This document shows, one piece after another, positions 9,606-58,032 of a stretch of 64,000 nucleotides of DNA. Position numbers and translations under genes: made by a program. The notes beneath the pieces were generated by a model, which saw only the letters and a program-made list of their open reading frames with translations, did no database searches and had not been told where the DNA came from. The DNA is from Propioniciclava sp. MC1595. GTDB taxonomy: Bacteria > Actinomycetota > Actinomycetes > Propionibacteriales > Propionibacteriaceae. The stretch covers positions 2,914,001 to 2,978,000 of the forward strand of contig NZ_CP071870.1 of NCBI RefSeq assembly GCF_017569205.1, written 5' to 3'. Each line of letters starts with the position of its first letter. Within the stretch, counting starts at the first letter, position 1.

Positions 9606-10993
9606 TTGTCGATCCCGAGCGAGAGCAACGCGTTCTCGACGACCTCGGTCAGCGCCGGGTGGATCCAGTACTGCCCGCGCGCCATCTGCTGCACGGTGAG
9701 CCCGGTGGCCATGGCCTGGATCACGGGCTGGATCAGCGTGGACGCCTGCGGCCCGATGATGTGCCCGCCCAGGAGCAGGCCGGTCTCGCGGTCTGCGACG
9801 AGCTTCACGCAGCTGGCGGTGTCCTCCATCGCCCAGCCGTAGGCGGTCGTGGAGTACTCCTGCACGGCGACGGCGACCTGCTCGCCACAGGCGAGCGCCT
9901 CGGCCTCGGTCATGCCCACCGAGGCCACCTGCGGGTGCCCGAACACGGCGTGCGGGATCGCGGCGTGGTTCGCCGTGATCGGTGCGTCGGGGTTGAGCAG
10001 GTTGTGCTGCACGACGCGGGCCTCGTGGTTGGCGACGTGCTTGAGCATCCACGGCGAGGACACGTCCCCGAGCGCGTACACGCCCTCGACCGAGGTCCGC
10101 TGCCAGGCGTCGACCAGCACGAAGCCGGCCTCGTCCAGCGCGATGCCGCCGGCACGCACGTCCAGCCGGTCGCTGTTGGGGCGGCGTCCGGTGGCCACGA
10201 GCAGGACGTCGGCCTCGACCACCCGCTCGGCCCCCGAGCTGTCGCTGACGTGCACGCGGACGCCATCCTCACCGGTCTCCACGCGGCGGGTGGCGTGGCC
10301 CAGGAGAAGGTTCACGTCGCGGCCCGCGGCCTCGGTGTAGCGCCGGGAGATCTCCTCGTCCTCGTGGCGCAGCATCCGGTCGCCGCGCACGACCACCGTC
10401 ACCTGCGACCCGAAGGCGCTGAACACGTGGGCGAACTCGGCGGCGATGAAGCCGCCGCCGATGATGGCCAGCCGGCGCGGGACGTCGTCGATCCGCATGA
10501 TGGTGTCGGAGTTGTGCACCCGGCCCGACGACCAGGCCTCGTCGAGGCCCTCGATCGAGGCCGGCGAGGTGCAGCGCGAGCCGGCTGCGATCACGATCAG
10601 GGGGGCGGTGATCCGCTCGCCGGCGACCTCGAGCTCGCGTTCGGCCACGAAGCGCGCGGTGTCGCGGTACAGGGTGACGTTGGACGCCTGCGCCCGCCAC
10701 GCCTCGCCCCCGGTGGAGATGGGGTCGATCCGCCCGAAGATGCGGTCGCGGACCGTCGCCCAGTCGGCCGTCGGCTGCGGGGCGTCCACACCGATCGCGG
10801 CGGCGGCGCCGGGCGCGCGCAGGTGGTCGGCGGGCAGCACGAACATCTTGGTGGGGATGCAGCCGTAGTTGAGGCAGGTGCCGCCGAAGCGGGCGCCGTC
10901 GTCGATCAGGGCCACGTCCCAGTCGGCGAAGCGCTCGTCGACGATGGAGTTGCCGGAGCCGGAGCCGATGACGATCAGGTCGAAGGTACGCAC
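9602..10993 (-). CDS. mtr: mycothione reductase
   Basis: 463 residues, a flavoprotein disulfide reductase. It has an FAD-binding start (FDLIVIGSGSGNSIVDERFAD), redox-active cysteines C40 and C45 in GGTCLNYGCIPTK, an NAD(P)H-binding Rossmann segment (LAIIGGGFIAAEFAHVFSAFG), and the C-terminal HPALTEVVENAL segment carrying the catalytic His-Glu pair. The GSGSGNSI start and FGRIDPIS are typical of mycothione reductase rather than lipoamide dehydrogenase or mercuric reductase. It reduces mycothiol disulfide with NADPH to keep the actinobacterial thiol pool reduced. GTG start at 10993. The GH3 gene overlaps its 3' end. Confidence 0.92.
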   Translation of the reverse strand: MRTFDLIVIGSGSGNSIVDERFADWDVALIDDGARFGGTCLNYGCIPTKMFVLPADHLRAPGAAAAIGVDAPQPTADWATVRDRIFGRIDPISTGGEAWRAQASNVTLYRDTARFVAERELEVAGERITAPLIVIAAGSRCTSPASIEGLDEAWSSGRVHNSDTIMRIDDVPRRLAIIGGGFIAAEFAHVFSAFGSQVTVVVRGDRMLRHEDEEISRRYTEAAGRDVNLLLGHATRRVETGEDGVRVHVSDSSGAERVVEADVLLVATGRRPNSDRLDVRAGGIALDEAGFVLVDAWQRTSVEGVYALGDVSSPWMLKHVANHEARVVQHNLLNPDAPITANHAAIPHAVFGHPQVASVGMTEAEALACGEQVAVAVQEYSTTAYGWAMEDTASCVKLVADRETGLLLGGHIIGPQASTLIQPVIQAMATGLTVQQMARGQYWIHPALTEVVENALLSLGIDK

Positions 10994-51128: not shown

Positions 51129-51821
51129 ATGGCCAGGCTCCCCCGTGTGACGATCCTCCAACTCGACCCCCGCTGCCCGGCGGGCCCGATCGAGGGGTGG
51201 TTGAAGGACGCCGGCGTGCGGCTCTCGCAGGTGTCCCTGTGGGACCGTGACGTCCCGCCGATCGCGTCGATCGGCGAGGGGCTGGTGATCCTGGGCGGGA
51301 CGATGTCGGCCCTCTCGGCGTCCGAGCACCCGTGGCTGGTCGACCTGGCCGACCTGGTCGCCGACGCCCACGACATCGACATCCCGATCCTCGGCGTGTG
51401 TCTGGGCCACCAGGTGCTCGCAAACGCGCTGGGTGGCCAGGTGATCGTCGGGCACCCGGACGGGACCGAGGAGGGCGCGGTCGCGCTGGAACTGCTGCCC
51501 GCGGCGTCCGAGGACCCGGTGCTGGGCGCGCTGTCGGGTGAGGTCGTGGTGGCGCAGTCGCACCACGACGTCGTCGTGCGGCTGCCCGAGGGGGCGGTCG
51601 AGCTGGCCCGGACCGCGCGGTACGGCAACCAGGCGTTCCGGCTGGGGTCGAGCTGGGGCGTCCAGTTCCACCCCGAGGCGACGCCCGAGCTGATCGAGGA
51701 CTGGTCCCGGCGCTCCCCCCGCCGCGCCGAGGTGGTCGCCGAGGTGACCGCGGCGATGGACGCCATCACCGCCTCCGGCCGCGCCGTCACCCAGGCGTTC
51801 GCGCAGGTCGTGCGCGGCTGA
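51129..51821 (+). CDS. class I glutamine amidotransferase-like protein
   Basis: 230 residues. Nucleophile Cys91 in ILGVCLGHQVLANALGG and the His-Glu pair in VQFHPEATPE complete the catalytic triad. It resembles the stand-alone GMP-synthase-type amidotransferases; no synthetase partner is adjacent. TAGGCT (51117-51122) plus 6 nt precedes the ATG, a leaderless arrangement. Confidence 0.9.
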   Translation: MARLPRVTILQLDPRCPAGPIEGWLKDAGVRLSQVSLWDRDVPPIASIGEGLVILGGTMSALSASEHPWLVDLADLVADAHDIDIPILGVCLGHQVLANALGGQVIVGHPDGTEEGAVALELLPAASEDPVLGALSGEVVVAQSHHDVVVRLPEGAVELARTARYGNQAFRLGSSWGVQFHPEATPELIEDWSRRSPRRAEVVAEVTAAMDAITASGRAVTQAFAQVVRG

Positions 51822-52197
51822 CCCAGCGCCGAGGGCTTGGGTTTGACACCAACCGAGAAGTGACCTCAAGCGAGCGACTTCGCCACGGGTTCACCGTGGA
51901 ACTCGCCCCGAAGAGTCTCGGTTGAGTTCAGTTCTCGGTGGCCCGGCGTCGCCACGCGTTCCTCGTGGCTCACTGGCTGTCGGAGCACGGGAATCCCAAG
52001 CCCTCGGCATGCAACACCCAAGCCCTCGGCGTCGGAAACCCAAGCCCTGGCCGTGCCTCCCGCTGCGCCGCGGCGCAGAGGCGCCCGAAGGTCACGAGTT
52101 CGTCACAGGGGTTGACCCGGGTGCGCCGACCCAGCACGATACGGATACCTGAATCACCATTCATGTTTGTGATTCGCCCCGTCGTGAAAGGATCCCC
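51822..52197. other. 376-nt non-coding gap with short repeats
   Basis: It holds an inverted copy GCCGAGGGCTTGGG at 51828-51841 and the 22-bp tandem array at 51995-52060, and then the promoter region of the livK remnant. No convincing gene or RNA was found. Confidence 0.6.
51995..52060. repeat. three tandem 22-bp repeats
   Basis: CCCAAGCCCTCGGC begins at 51995 and 52017, and a variant (CCCAAGCCCTGGCC) at 52039: an exact 22-nt period. An inverted copy at 51828-51841 could pair with any of them. There are only three units and the spacers are 8 nt, so this is not a CRISPR array. A terminator or regulatory role is possible. Confidence 0.7.
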
Positions 52198-52413
52198 ATG
52201 CGGACACAGAAGTTCCTCGTCGCCGGCGCGGCCGCGCTGGCACTGACGCTCAGCGCGTGCGCACCGAACGCGGCAGCGCCCGCCCCGGCCCCCGGTACCG
52301 CCGGCTCCACGGACGGCGCCGCCGCACCCGCGGACACCACCCCGGTCAAGGTCGACATCATCTACTCCAAGACCGGCCCCCTGGCCGCCTACGGCGAGAC
52401 CTTCTACGAGGGC
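52198..52413 (+). pseudogene. livK: livK 5' fragment (branched-chain amino acid binding lipoprotein)
   Basis: 72 codons: signal peptide with lipobox LSAC (LALTLSACAPNAAAP), an Ala/Pro linker, then VKVDIIYSKTGPLAAYGETFYEG, the normal start of a LivK-type periplasmic binding domain. It has AAGGA before the ATG. At about 52411-52416 the homology stops, and the sequence continues as an acyl-CoA ligase in another frame. About 330 codons are missing. Confidence 0.85.
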
Positions 52414-53012
52414 CCGAGGCCGGCCCGAACGTGCTCTGCCTGCCCGCCGAGCTGGCCTTCGAGCGGGCCGGGTCCGCAGGCGTCCCCTACCCGCACGTGA
52501 CCTGCGCCATCGCCGACCCCGTCACCGGCGAGGTGCTCGACGGCGAGGCGACCGGCGAGCTGCTCGTGCGCGGCCCCTCGGTCTTCCCCGGCTACCTCGG
52601 TGACCCCCAGGCGACCGCCCAGAGCACGCGCGGCGGGTGGCTGCACACGGGCGACCTGGTCCGGCGCGATGCGGAGGGCTACCACTGGGTGCTCGACCGC
52701 ATCGACGACCTGTACATCACCTCGGGCGAGAACGTGTCCCCGGTCGAGGTCGAGCAGGCGCTGCTCACCCACCCCGGCGTGGCGCGCGTGGCCGTGGTCG
52801 GCGTCCCCGACGAGCGCCGCGGCGAGGTCGGCCTGGCGTTCGTGGTGCGCCGCCCCGGCGTCCCGGTCGACGAGGTCGCGCTGCTGGAGCACTGCCGCGA
52901 GCGGCTGGCCCGGTTCAAGGTGCCCGCCGAGGTGCGGTTCACCGAGGAGTTGCCCCACGCCGCCCTCGAGAAGGTGCGGCGCTCGGCGCTGCGCGGGAGG
53001 GTGGAGGCATGA
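52414..53012 (+). pseudogene. acyl-CoA ligase 3' fragment (AMP-binding enzyme)
   Basis: About 199 codons: EAGPNVLCLPAE, then GELLVRGPSVFPGYLGDPQAT, GWLHTGDLVRRD, the hinge region DDLYITSGENVSPVEVEQAL and the closing LEKVRRSAL. This is the C-terminal part of an ANL-family long- or medium-chain acyl-CoA ligase; the N-terminal ~300 residues with the ATP-binding P-loop are gone. Its frame differs from the livK fragment, so no fused protein is made. Its stop overlaps the tetR start. Confidence 0.87.
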
Positions 53013-53617
53013 GCTCGGCACCCCGTACCGCCCGTGGCCGCCGCACACGCGAGAAGATCCTCGCCTCGGCCCTGAAGGAGTTCGGCAAGGTCGGTTACCA
53101 CGACGCCTCGATCGTCCGGATCACCGAGGGCGCCGGCGTCGCCATGGGCACCTTCTACCTCTACTTCGACGGCAAGCTCGCCGTCTTCAACGAGCTCGTC
53201 GAGGATCTCAACCGCCGCCTGCGCCACCGCCTGACCCAGGCCATCGTGGGCGCCCCCGACCGGCTCGCCGCCGAGCGGGCGGGGTTCCGGGCGTTCTTCG
53301 AGTTCACCACCGAGGTACCGCAGCTGTACCGGATCATCCGGCAGGCCGAGTTCGTCTCCCCCGAGGCGATGCACCTGCACTACGGGCGCATCGTGGAGGG
53401 CTACCAGCGGGCGCTGGCCGCGGCGTCCGACGCCGGCGAGATCGCCCCACTCGACCCCGAGGTCACCGCCTGGGCGCTCATGGGCATCGGCGAGATCATC
53501 GGCATGCGCTGGATCCTGTGGCAGGAGGGCGAGGACGGGGCGCCCGCCATCCCCGACGACGTGCTGGACAACACCCTCGACTTCATCACCCGCGCGCTGC
53601 GCCCCGACAAGGAGTGA
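53009..53617 (+). CDS. TetR-family transcriptional regulator
   Basis: 202 residues. N-terminal HTH (REKILASALKEFGKVGYHDA, then GVAMGTFYLYFDGK) and an all-helical ligand domain with ALMGIGEIIGMRWILW near 150-170. The ATG at 53009 overlaps the ligase remnant stop (ATGA). Before the deletion it probably sat in a liv/acyl-CoA ligase operon; likely effector is an acyl-CoA or related ligand, inferred from neighbours. Confidence 0.9.
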   Translation: MSSAPRTARGRRTREKILASALKEFGKVGYHDASIVRITEGAGVAMGTFYLYFDGKLAVFNELVEDLNRRLRHRLTQAIVGAPDRLAAERAGFRAFFEFTTEVPQLYRIIRQAEFVSPEAMHLHYGRIVEGYQRALAAASDAGEIAPLDPEVTAWALMGIGEIIGMRWILWQEGEDGAPAIPDDVLDNTLDFITRALRPDKE

Positions 53618-53619
53618 CC

Positions 53620-54516
53620 ATGTTCCGTGAGTTCGACGCCGCCACCGGCCTGCACGCGGGCGTGTGGGAGCCGACCACCCCCACCGCGGACGCCGGGGCG
53701 GGTGTGCCGACCGTGCTCGCCATCCACGGCATCACGTCCTCCCACCGGGCGTGGGCGCCGATGGCCCGGCAGCTGCCCGACGTCCGGATCGTCGCCCCCG
53801 ACCTGCGCGGCCGCGGCGGATCCCGCGCCCTGCCCGGGCCCTACGGCATGGCCCGGCACGCCGACGACGTGGCCGCGCTGCTCGACGAGCTCGGCGTCGA
53901 CCGCTGCGTCGTGGTCGGGCACTCGATGGGCGGCTACGTCGCGGTGACCCTCGCAGCCCGCCACCCCGAGCGGGTCGCCGGACTCGTGCTGGTCGACGGG
54001 GGCCTGCCGCTCAAGGGCGACCCGTCGCTCGACCCCGAGGAGTCGCTCCGCCGCACGCTCGGCCCGGCCGCCGAGCGCCTGTCGCGCACGTTCGCCTCGC
54101 GCGAGGAGTACCGCTCGTTCTGGAAGGTGCACCCCTCCTTCGCCGAGTGGAGCGACGACATCGAGGCCTACGTCGACTACGACCTCGTCTCCGACGACGG
54201 TGCGCTGCACCCGGCGACCTCGTACGAGGCGATGGCCGCCGACTCGCGCGACCTGGTCACGCCGGGCAACGACGCGATCCGGGCGCTGCGCGACCTCGCG
54301 ATCGACGCGACCTTCCTGCGCGCCGAGCGTGGGATGGTCGACGAGCCGGGCGGGCTGTTCCCGGCCGCGTGGGTGGCCGAGCAGGTCGAGCGGCAGCCGC
54401 GCGTGCGCGTGGTCGAGGTGCCCGACGTGAACCACTACACGATCACGCTGTCCGACCCTGGCGCCGTGGCCGTGGCGGGGGCCGTCCGCGACGCCCTCGC
54501 GGGGGCGCGCGTGTAG
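53620..54516 (+). CDS. alpha/beta hydrolase
   Basis: 298 residues. Oxyanion motif AIHGITSSH, nucleophile Ser102 in VVGHSMGGYVAV, and a C-terminal His in VPDVNHYTI. Cap-domain helices in the middle. Could hydrolyse an ester or a CoA-derived intermediate; substrate unknown. ATG at 53620, 2 nt after tetR. Its stop TAG lies within the TAGGGT -10 of the next gene. Confidence 0.9.
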   Translation: MFREFDAATGLHAGVWEPTTPTADAGAGVPTVLAIHGITSSHRAWAPMARQLPDVRIVAPDLRGRGGSRALPGPYGMARHADDVAALLDELGVDRCVVVGHSMGGYVAVTLAARHPERVAGLVLVDGGLPLKGDPSLDPEESLRRTLGPAAERLSRTFASREEYRSFWKVHPSFAEWSDDIEAYVDYDLVSDDGALHPATSYEAMAADSRDLVTPGNDAIRALRDLAIDATFLRAERGMVDEPGGLFPAAWVAEQVERQPRVRVVEVPDVNHYTITLSDPGAVAVAGAVRDALAGARV

Positions 54517-54525
54517 GGTCGGGGG

Positions 54526-55572
54526 ATGCTGGCCGGACGGGATCTCGGGACGCTCCCCAAGGCCCACCTGCACCTCCACTTCACCGGCTCGCTGAGCGTG
54601 CCCACGCTGGTCTCGTTGGCCGATGCGCGTGGGATCGAACTGCCCGAGCAGCTGGTCGACTCGATCGCCCTGGACGTGCCCGCCGACAAGCGCGGGTGGT
54701 ACCGGTTCCAGCGCTTCTACGACATCGCCCGGGCCGCGGTCCAGGGCGAGGACGCCCTCCGCACCGTCGTGCGTTCTGCCGCGGCCGAGGACGCCGCCGA
54801 GGGGTCGCGCCGGCTGGAGCTGCAGGTCGACCCGACCTCGTACGCCTCCTCGGTCGGGGGGCTGCAACCCGCGTTGGAGATCATCTGCGACGAGGCGCGG
54901 TCCGCGTCGGCCGCGACCGGGGTACAGGTCGGGATCGTCGTCGCGGCGTCCCGGGTCCGGCACCCCTTCGACGCCCGCACCCTCGCCCGCCTGGCCGCCC
55001 GGCACGCGGGGCAGGGCGCCGGCGAGGTGTGCGCGTTCGGGCTGAACAACAACGAGTGGGAGGGCGAGACCGCCGAGTGGGACGGGGCATTCCGCATCGC
55101 ACGACGCGCCGGGCTGCCCGGGGTGCCGCACGGCGGCGAGCTGCGCGGCCCCGAGCACCTCGCCGAGGTGGTGGAGCACCTGGAGCCGGCGCGGATCGGC
55201 CACGGGGTGCGCGCGGTCGAGGACCCCGATCTGCTGGCCCGGCTGGTCGACCGGGGCGTGGCCTTCGAGGTGTGCCCGGCGTCCAACGTGCAGCTGGGGG
55301 TCTACCCGACACTGGCCGACGTGCCGCTGGGCGTCCTGCTGGACGCCGGCGCGCGGGTGGCCCTCGGGGCCGATGACCCGCTGCTGTTCCTGTCGCGGCT
55401 GGTCGACCAGTACCGGACGGCGCGCGAGGTGCACGGGCTGGACGACGCCCGCCTAGCCGGGCTGGCGAGGGCCTCGATCGAGGCGTCCTTCGCGTCGGAC
55501 ACCGACAAGGCCGGGTGGCTGGCCGAGGTGGACGACTGGCTCTTAGGCTCGGCCCATGACGGATCACGTTGA
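54526..55572 (+). CDS. add: adenosine deaminase family protein
   Basis: 348 residues. Zinc-site HxH (H14, H16) in LPKAHLHLHFTGS, GVPHGGEL, RIGHGVRAV and the Asp pair VALGADDPLLF. The usual GLDLAGNE is FGLNNNEWEG here, so a deaminase with altered substrate (adenosine, adenine or aminodeoxyfutalosine) cannot be excluded. TAGGGT plus 6 nt before the ATG. The last 17 nt overlap the DinB gene. Confidence 0.85.
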   Translation: MLAGRDLGTLPKAHLHLHFTGSLSVPTLVSLADARGIELPEQLVDSIALDVPADKRGWYRFQRFYDIARAAVQGEDALRTVVRSAAAEDAAEGSRRLELQVDPTSYASSVGGLQPALEIICDEARSASAATGVQVGIVVAASRVRHPFDARTLARLAARHAGQGAGEVCAFGLNNNEWEGETAEWDGAFRIARRAGLPGVPHGGELRGPEHLAEVVEHLEPARIGHGVRAVEDPDLLARLVDRGVAFEVCPASNVQLGVYPTLADVPLGVLLDAGARVALGADDPLLFLSRLVDQYRTAREVHGLDDARLAGLARASIEASFASDTDKAGWLAEVDDWLLGSAHDGSR

Positions 55573-56664: not shown

Positions 56665-58032
56665 ATGGCGGAACTGGTCCTGGATTCGGTGGCGGTGGCA
56701 GCAGCAGCGCTCGACCACGCCACCGACACGATCCGCGCCGCCGAGGTCACGCAGTGCCTGGCCATCGCCGCGTTGTGTGACCTGCACGAGGTGGACGAGT
56801 CCGTGCTGGTCGACGGGTGCGAACGCTGGGTGCCCGGCGGTGCCGACGGCACCCCACACATCGGGGAGTTCGTCATCGGCGAGATCGCCGGCCTGCTCGG
56901 CGCCGGCATCGGCGCCACCGTGCTCCGCATCCACCGGGTCCTCAACCTGCGCCACCGCCACCCCACCCTCTGGACGCTCGTGGTCACCGGCGACATCCGC
57001 GCCCACGAGGCCTTCCTGGTCGCCGACGCCGCCGCAGCCGCGAAGCTCGACGCCGACGCCTGCAGTCGGTTCGACCGCATGTGCGCCCACGCCCTGGCCC
57101 TCCAACCCTGGGCACGGGTGAAGGGCCAGCTCGAACGCTGGCTGGTCAAGGCCGACCCCACCCAGGCCGCCGCCAACGCCGCAGCGGCTGCCGGACGCCG
57201 ACGGGTCGACCTCGGCCCGGTCACGGACGGCCACGTCGGCCTGTGGGGCCAGGTGGACGCCGCCGACGGACTCGCCCTCGACGACGCCCTCAACCACCTC
57301 GCCGAGAATCTGGATGGCGAGACCATCGACCACCGGCGCGCCAGCGCCCTCGGGCTCATGGCACGCAGCGTGCTCGGGCAGGACACCCTCCCCACCGGTG
57401 GCGTGGCAAAGAAGGCGGAGATCGTCGTGCGGATCGACAGCGCTGACCTCGCCGACCCGGGCAGCGGCACCGCGGACATCGCCGGGTGGGGGCACGTGCT
57501 GCTGTCCCAACTCGACGCGATCCTCACCGGCTGCAAGATCCAGGTCCGGCCGATCGTGATCGACACCACCGTGCCGACGTTCGACGGGTATGTGGTGCCC
57601 GACGCCATGCGCAGGGTGCTGGGCGAGCGCAACCCCGTCGACGTGTTCCCCTACGGCACCCGACAGGCCGGCTCCTGCCAGGCCGACCACACCATCCCCT
57701 ACCAAGCAGGCCTCACCGGGCAGACCCACCTGGGCAACCTCGGTCCCCTGTCGAGCTTCACCCACCGGCTCAAGACCCACGGCGGCTGGCACCTCGAACA
57801 ACCCACCCCCGGCCTGTTCCTATGGCGCTCACCCCTGGGCTACCAGTACGCCGTCACCACCACCGGCACCATCCGCATCGGCAAACCCGAACCACCCCAA
57901 CACCGGTGGTGGCACCAAGAACCACCCGACCACCAGCCACCCGACGACCTCGGGCCACCCGGCCGAGCAGGCACGGCCCCGATCCCACCCGACCCGGGCG
58001 AACGACAGACACCCCTGCCCTACGTCGCCTGA
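56665..58032 (+). CDS. HNH endonuclease, 13E12 repeat/DUF222 family
   Basis: 455 residues. N-terminal DUF222 region with helical repeats (about 1-290), then an HNH nuclease near 350-385 (SCQADHTIPY, LGNLGPLSSFTHRLKTHGGW) and a Pro/His-rich tail. Such genes are multicopy, mobile-like elements in actinobacteria. GGGAGGG precedes the ATG. The non-coding stretch before it (56526-56664) has a lower GC segment (GGAAATTGTCAG). No terminal repeats identified. Possibly a homing-type or selfish gene. Confidence 0.92.
   Translation: MAELVLDSVAVAAAALDHATDTIRAAEVTQCLAIAALCDLHEVDESVLVDGCERWVPGGADGTPHIGEFVIGEIAGLLGAGIGATVLRIHRVLNLRHRHPTLWTLVVTGDIRAHEAFLVADAAAAAKLDADACSRFDRMCAHALALQPWARVKGQLERWLVKADPTQAAANAAAAAGRRRVDLGPVTDGHVGLWGQVDAADGLALDDALNHLAENLDGETIDHRRASALGLMARSVLGQDTLPTGGVAKKAEIVVRIDSADLADPGSGTADIAGWGHVLLSQLDAILTGCKIQVRPIVIDTTVPTFDGYVVPDAMRRVLGERNPVDVFPYGTRQAGSCQADHTIPYQAGLTGQTHLGNLGPLSSFTHRLKTHGGWHLEQPTPGLFLWRSPLGYQYAVTTTGTIRIGKPEPPQHRWWHQEPPDHQPPDDLGPPGRAGTAPIPPDPGERQTPLPYVA

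Follow-up and report, generated by a model that had tools for sequence, protein, structure and literature searches.

Structure of the locus

The window (64,000 nucleotides of the Propioniciclava sp. MC1595 genome, G000) contains a livK gene start joined to the middle of a gene for an ANL acyl-CoA ligase, followed by genes for a TetR-family regulator, an alpha/beta hydrolase and an adenosine deaminase. The features of this region, described relative to the congeners G007 and G011, are as follows.

52147..52166, + strand: palindrome ACCTGAA-N6-TTCATGT, putative operator of the TetR regulator encoded at 53009-53617; 31 bp 5' of the livK start, zero mismatches to ACCTGAANNNNNNTTCAKGT
52198..52413, + strand: livK remnant, comprising the start, a lipoprotein-type signal peptide and 72 codons; 89-93% identity with the start of G007 LivK
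52413..52414, unstranded: deletion junction GGGC/CCGAGG, with the break between C and C; 5,362 bp absent relative to G007 (L002 4637-9998)
52414..53012, + strand: acyl-CoA ligase remnant, comprising codons 309-506 and two bases of codon 308, with the AMP-binding domain mostly absent; 85% identity to the 506-aa ligase of G007
53009..53617, + strand: full-length TetR-family regulator of 202 aa, whose start overlaps the stop of the ligase; 88-89% identity to orthologs in three congeners
53620..54516, + strand: full-length alpha/beta hydrolase of 298 aa, encoded by the final gene of the old operon; 83% identity to G007 and G011
54526..55572, + strand: adenosine deaminase, right neighbour, outside the operon; present in 12/13 genomes of the genus (E <= 1e-40)

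The livK frame opens at 52198 and is intact for 72 codons, after which it overruns the end of its own gene to a stop at 52500, giving a 100-aa open reading frame for which no Pfam match was found. By tblastn, with the query taken from its second residue, residues 1-71 of G007 LivK matched the window at 89% identity, and residues 1-70 at 93%. From 52414 the sequence corresponds to the last 198 codons of the ligase, in a frame other than that of livK; residues 309-506 of the G007 ligase aligned to window positions 52416-53009 at 85% identity, and the remnant frame retained the whole of PF13193 and only the last 62 positions of PF00501. Caution is warranted against annotating 52198-52500 and 52257-53012 as genes. 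A reading of the sequence without database searches (the sequence-only reading) had placed the change from livK start to mid-ligase, in another frame, at about 52411-52416, and nucleotide comparison bore this out, with GGGC followed by CCGAGG at 52413/52414.

At the join, the left parent continues TTCCAGGCCGGCC and the right parent is CACCGAGGCCGGCC in G007. A 9-bp motif common to both parents, AGGCCGGCC, lies near the join, starting 3-4 nt past it and one base out of register. Cross-over within this motif predicts that TTCC would be left before it, and TTCC was not found at the join, where homology amounts to 0-1 bp (taking G007, and for the right side also G011, as the guide to the ancestor). 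With parents inferred from these relatives, the locus does not show the pattern of a short-direct-repeat deletion, i.e. a repeat common to the parents of which one copy stands at the join. The GAGG that the sequence-only reading had noted on either side of the join is present in the sequence, but it fails as deletion homology: the left parent reads CAGG in G007, and both GAGG copies survive in the product whereas a homology event leaves one, so the motif is no mark of a homology-mediated deletion.

Neither a promoter nor a terminator consensus was found across 51800-53100. Between an amidotransferase gene and livK, at 51827-52060, there are three direct copies of a 22-nt repeat beginning CCCAAGCCCT, with an inverted copy approximately 150-190 nt before them; the window has 3 occurrences of CCCAAGCCCTCGGC with at most one mismatch, where 0.11 would be expected.

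Intact operon in a congener and extent of the loss

Comparison of the ligase remnant with genome contigs returned 13 loci, of which two were close (85 and 86%), namely L002, a stretch of G007 titled as a Propionibacterium sp. MAG, and L003, a stretch of G011, an uncultured Propioniciclava MAG. The gene row in L002 runs livK, livG, livF, livH, livM, ligase, tetR, hydrolase, a gene of the major facilitator superfamily (MFS) and adenosine deaminase, while L003 starts within livM and continues with full-length ligase, tetR and hydrolase. The match between the window and L002 ends at L002 position 4636 and resumes at 9999, leaving 5,362 bp absent from the window, a gap that runs from livK codon 73 to ligase codon 308. 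G007 therefore provides a relative in which the genes are whole, in the same order and with the same flanks, although the left flank is not fully collinear, because the amidotransferase gene at 51129-51821 of the window is absent from G007.

This comparison upholds the earlier proposal that a single deletion of several kilobases removed the Liv permease and ATPase genes together with parts of livK and the ligase gene, and that tetR and the hydrolase gene remain, both at full length. An intact operon in relatives, which the sequence-only reading had named as a check, exists in G007 as livK-G-F-H-M-ligase-tetR-hydrolase, but not in the order livKHMGF that had been assumed. No relative was found with the same fused order and intact functions; a similar join in the congener G004 is differently placed and broken.

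A CynX/NimT-type MFS gene (12994-14181 of L068, another stretch of G007) lies between the hydrolase and adenosine deaminase genes in G007 only. Its loss from the window was considered and rejected, since it is missing from G000, G004 and G011 alike and the edges there coincide, which makes insertion in G007 likelier. The window also contains a 455-aa open reading frame at 56665-58032 that has no Pfam match and is mostly without a G007 counterpart, though its flanks match there; it may be an inserted gene.

Age of the deletion and the possibility of assembly error

The dN/dS of the ligase remnant was 0.20 with G007, 0.18 with G011 and 0.16 along the branch to the window; the full-length ligases of G007 and G011 gave 0.22 between themselves, and the livK piece gave 0.09 with G007 (68 codons); all dN/dS figures given here are simple pairwise counts without a significance test. 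The normal values for the ligase remnant suggest that most of the divergence accumulated while the genes worked, and on that scale of divergence the deletion is, as judged from the substitution pattern, recent. For tetR, pairwise dN/dS was 0.18-0.25. The hydrolase gave pairwise values of 0.21-0.23; its window branch, at 0.33, stands above the other two (0.15 and 0.16), which may indicate constraint being lost.

Both the lack of decay in the ligase remnant and the near-zero homology at the join would also be expected if 5.4 kb had been dropped during assembly and the cell still carried the whole operon. However, repeat collapse, the usual cause of such an error, needs long repeats, and direct repeats between the parent stretches (L068 5201-5900 and 10401-11300, G007 serving as proxy) are at most 11 bp, making collapse unlikely. 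The genome is also a single contig of 3.43 Mb, 100% complete with 0.22% contamination, and no copy of the missing genes turned up at another place in the genome: among the 40 of 894 first-look candidates that were scored there was no long match to the missing DNA, the best being 103 bp at 79% in its ATPase part, so that among these no relocated copy was seen. Protein searches of the genome with LivK and the ligase returned only the scar pieces and distant paralogs, and the only other PF13458 protein is 23% identical to the LivK of this operon. Finally, G004 carries a different livK-ligase join with further deletions. Assembly error is thus considered very improbable. The best explanation, with a probability of about 0.88 taken jointly with its regulatory and 3-hydroxyacid parts described below, is that one recent illegitimate deletion with near-zero homology at the join cut a livK-G-F-H-M-ligase-tetR-hydrolase operon.

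Parallel loss within the genus

Within the genus, tetR was present in 4/13 genomes (E <= 1e-15), namely G000, G004, G007 and G011. In G001 both flanks match and approximately 240 bp stand in place of the operon (an empty site), while G009 has the deaminase and no matching left flank within the stretch read. The G004 scar comprises approximately 36 livK codons, ligase codons ~236-298, ligase codons ~467-503 and a full-length tetR, followed by a hydrolase gene without approximately residues 130-237, i.e. a different livK-ligase join and two internal deletions, in the ligase and hydrolase genes. Both internal deletions appear to be in frame (L066 9073-10477), and the frame offset from livK to ligase in G004 is that of the window, which could be chance. 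Searches of the genus with livK and the ligase revealed no further close case of such a scar; a livK-like match in G005 reached 48% over residues 5-78.

Neither the livK limit nor the ligase limit of the G004 scar coincides with that of the window, so the simplest account is two separate deletions. The alternative of one ancestral deletion common to G000 and G004, later enlarged in each line, draws on the fact that both joins link livK to the ligase of the same operon, and on trees of the flanks and of adenosine deaminase, which did not resolve the branching of G000, G004 and G007. It is nevertheless improbable, as the window keeps 72 livK codons against approximately 36 in G004, as G004 keeps ligase codons ~236-298 that are absent from the window, and as more events are needed than under two separate deletions.

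Function of the lost genes

As in Liv/HAAT-type ABC operons (livKHMGF), the G007 operon encodes a PF13458 binding protein, two permeases and two ATPases, but it differs in its order K-G-F-H-M and in its linkage to an acyl-CoA ligase, tetR and a hydrolase. The branched-chain amino acid uptake implied by the sequence-only reading was rejected: against the curated NCBIfam cut-offs for branched-chain amino acid and urea systems, LivK, LivG and LivF fell far short (60.9 of 477, 166 of 362 and 148.6 of 441 bits, respectively), and the operon genes of relatives point to a 3-hydroxyacid as the probable substrate instead.

In nine operon loci outside the genus, the gap between tetR and the hydrolase gene holds an open dehydrogenase (bdh-like) frame in six (L084, L085, L087, L088, L089 and L090), an interrupted one in L092 and none in L086 and L091. 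The L089 dehydrogenase scored 271.5 over 258 bits with PRK12429 and 302.8, just below 307.05, with TIGR01963, so that relatives have a 3-hydroxybutyrate dehydrogenase gene within the operon. L086 and L089, the two loci examined beyond this point, continue with genes for CoA-transferase subunits A and B (scoA, scoB) and a thiolase, as in 3-hydroxybutyrate clusters (bdh, scoAB, thiolase); those of L089, the only locus scanned for families, pass TIGR02429, TIGR02428 and TIGR01930. In the genus of the window, by contrast, these genes lie apart from the operon, with scoA, scoB, bdh and thiolase adjoining one another in G000 at approximately 3154117-3157467 of contig C1 (scoB and thiolase being named by likeness). 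A 3-hydroxybutyrate dehydrogenase homolog in G004 (L123; G004:C3:9339-10067) has one TAG within the match.

Other likenesses would suit aromatic acids and count against 3-hydroxybutyrate, in that the nearest solved relative of the ligase is feruloyl-CoA synthetase, the hydrolase shows likeness to PcaD as well, and the models for the CoA-transferase extend to the pcaI/pcaJ enzymes. Because the operon includes bdh, scoAB and thiolase genes in relatives, hydroxycinnamate uptake, which the feruloyl-CoA synthetase match would suggest, was ranked second. On the evidence of the neighbouring genes we lean towards the lost transporter and ligase having served the uptake and activation of 3-hydroxybutyrate or a related short 3-hydroxyacid, in which case the later 3-hydroxyacid catabolic genes would still be present in the separate G000 cluster.

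A conserved palindrome and a putative TetR regulon

Relatives from three genera have the palindrome at the same spot 5' of livK. Allowing up to 2 mismatches, ACCTGAA-N6-TTCAKGT was found in 10 of the 11 promoters read, before livK or, in G039, before the ligase, and was absent from that of G048 (mismatches in G053, G056 and G039 were counted by eye). At the same threshold the pattern occurs at four places in G000, and a control pattern at none. Besides the livK site, only one place in G000 (G000:C1:2679016) matched the pattern on both strands; it has 2 mismatches and lies 29 bp 5' of the gene for a second, unlinked alpha/beta hydrolase. The same second hydrolase in G004, G007 and G011 is also preceded by 2-mismatch sites. 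This hydrolase is present in 4/13 congeners (E <= 1e-50), the same four that carry tetR, though these four are related and so do not count as independent. The best-scoring NCBIfam model for the second hydrolase is an intracellular short-chain polyhydroxyalkanoate depolymerase, at 72 of 300 bits and far under the cut-off. Extra palindrome hits with 2 mismatches were seen in G033 and G084, and as the control pattern also hits in G084, weak sites there mean little. In G000 and G007 a GPH-type symporter gene (L110 4630-7115, L111, L112, L113) precedes the palindrome and gene of the second hydrolase; in G004 and G011 its orientation relative to the hydrolase is reversed, and the palindrome stays with the hydrolase.

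These sites suggest that the remnant is probably still a TetR-controlled unit and that the same regulator probably also controls the unlinked second hydrolase through its putative site. The deletion would have left behind the promoter region with its palindrome, tetR and the hydrolase gene, and since all three stayed, transcription from the former livK promoter would be expected to cross the two dead gene remnants and reach tetR and the hydrolase gene. A possible reason for the retention of the regulator is the second putative site and hydrolase, control of which would give it a use once the transporter had gone.

Distribution across the family

Across the family, tetR was found in 14 of 198 genomes (E <= 1e-25). 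Eight of these (G007, G084, G053, G033, G054, G042, G048 and G056) carry all of livKGFHM, ligase, tetR and hydrolase, three (G011, G044 and G028) are cut by contig ends, and three (G000, G004 and G039) are without livKGFHM at the locus. In G039 the palindrome directly precedes the ligase, whose N-terminus is approximately 18 residues shorter than in relatives; the absence of Liv genes there covers the 16.5 kb read, approximately 9 kb of it before the ligase, and they could lie elsewhere in the genome.

The persistence of the promoter-side palindrome in the three genomes without livKGFHM (3/14), together with purifying selection on tetR in the genus, would be consistent with a selected rewiring, in which losing the transporter and ligase was advantageous and the remaining promoter-tetR-hydrolase unit still serves a function. 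This is unlikely, as the internal deletion in the G004 hydrolase, the interrupted dehydrogenase frame in G039 and the raised dN/dS on the window hydrolase branch all suit plain decay, and as the family genomes were found by tetR, so that its retention is partly a sampling effect. A broader proposal, that the uptake operon was cut down independently several times in one family, with the palindrome and tetR spared each time, to leave a small regulator-hydrolase unit with a two-site regulon for 3-hydroxyacid or storage-polyester use, is likewise doubtful.

Significance

Fused pseudogenes produced by illegitimate deletion are a general class of bacterial gene decay. The window does not differ in kind, having likewise two truncated genes out of frame, near-zero homology at the join and a relative with the operon intact; what is notable is the recurrence, since G004 has also lost part of this operon and G039 has no livKGFHM at the locus. 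In a surface-level search of the literature, the livKGFHM-ligase-tetR-hydrolase operon was not recognised and no role was found for such a transporter and ligase in 3-hydroxybutyrate clusters.

The scar in the window is a real, recent and ordinary deletion affecting a catabolic uptake operon, and a congener provides a parallel case. It represents ordinary gene decay of which the recurrence is mildly interesting. Its value lies in offering a clean instance of recent operon decay for which a single genus supplies the intact operon, a parallel loss at different positions and, in G001, an empty site, and in tying a Liv-type transporter and a CoA ligase to a probable 3-hydroxyacid regulon.
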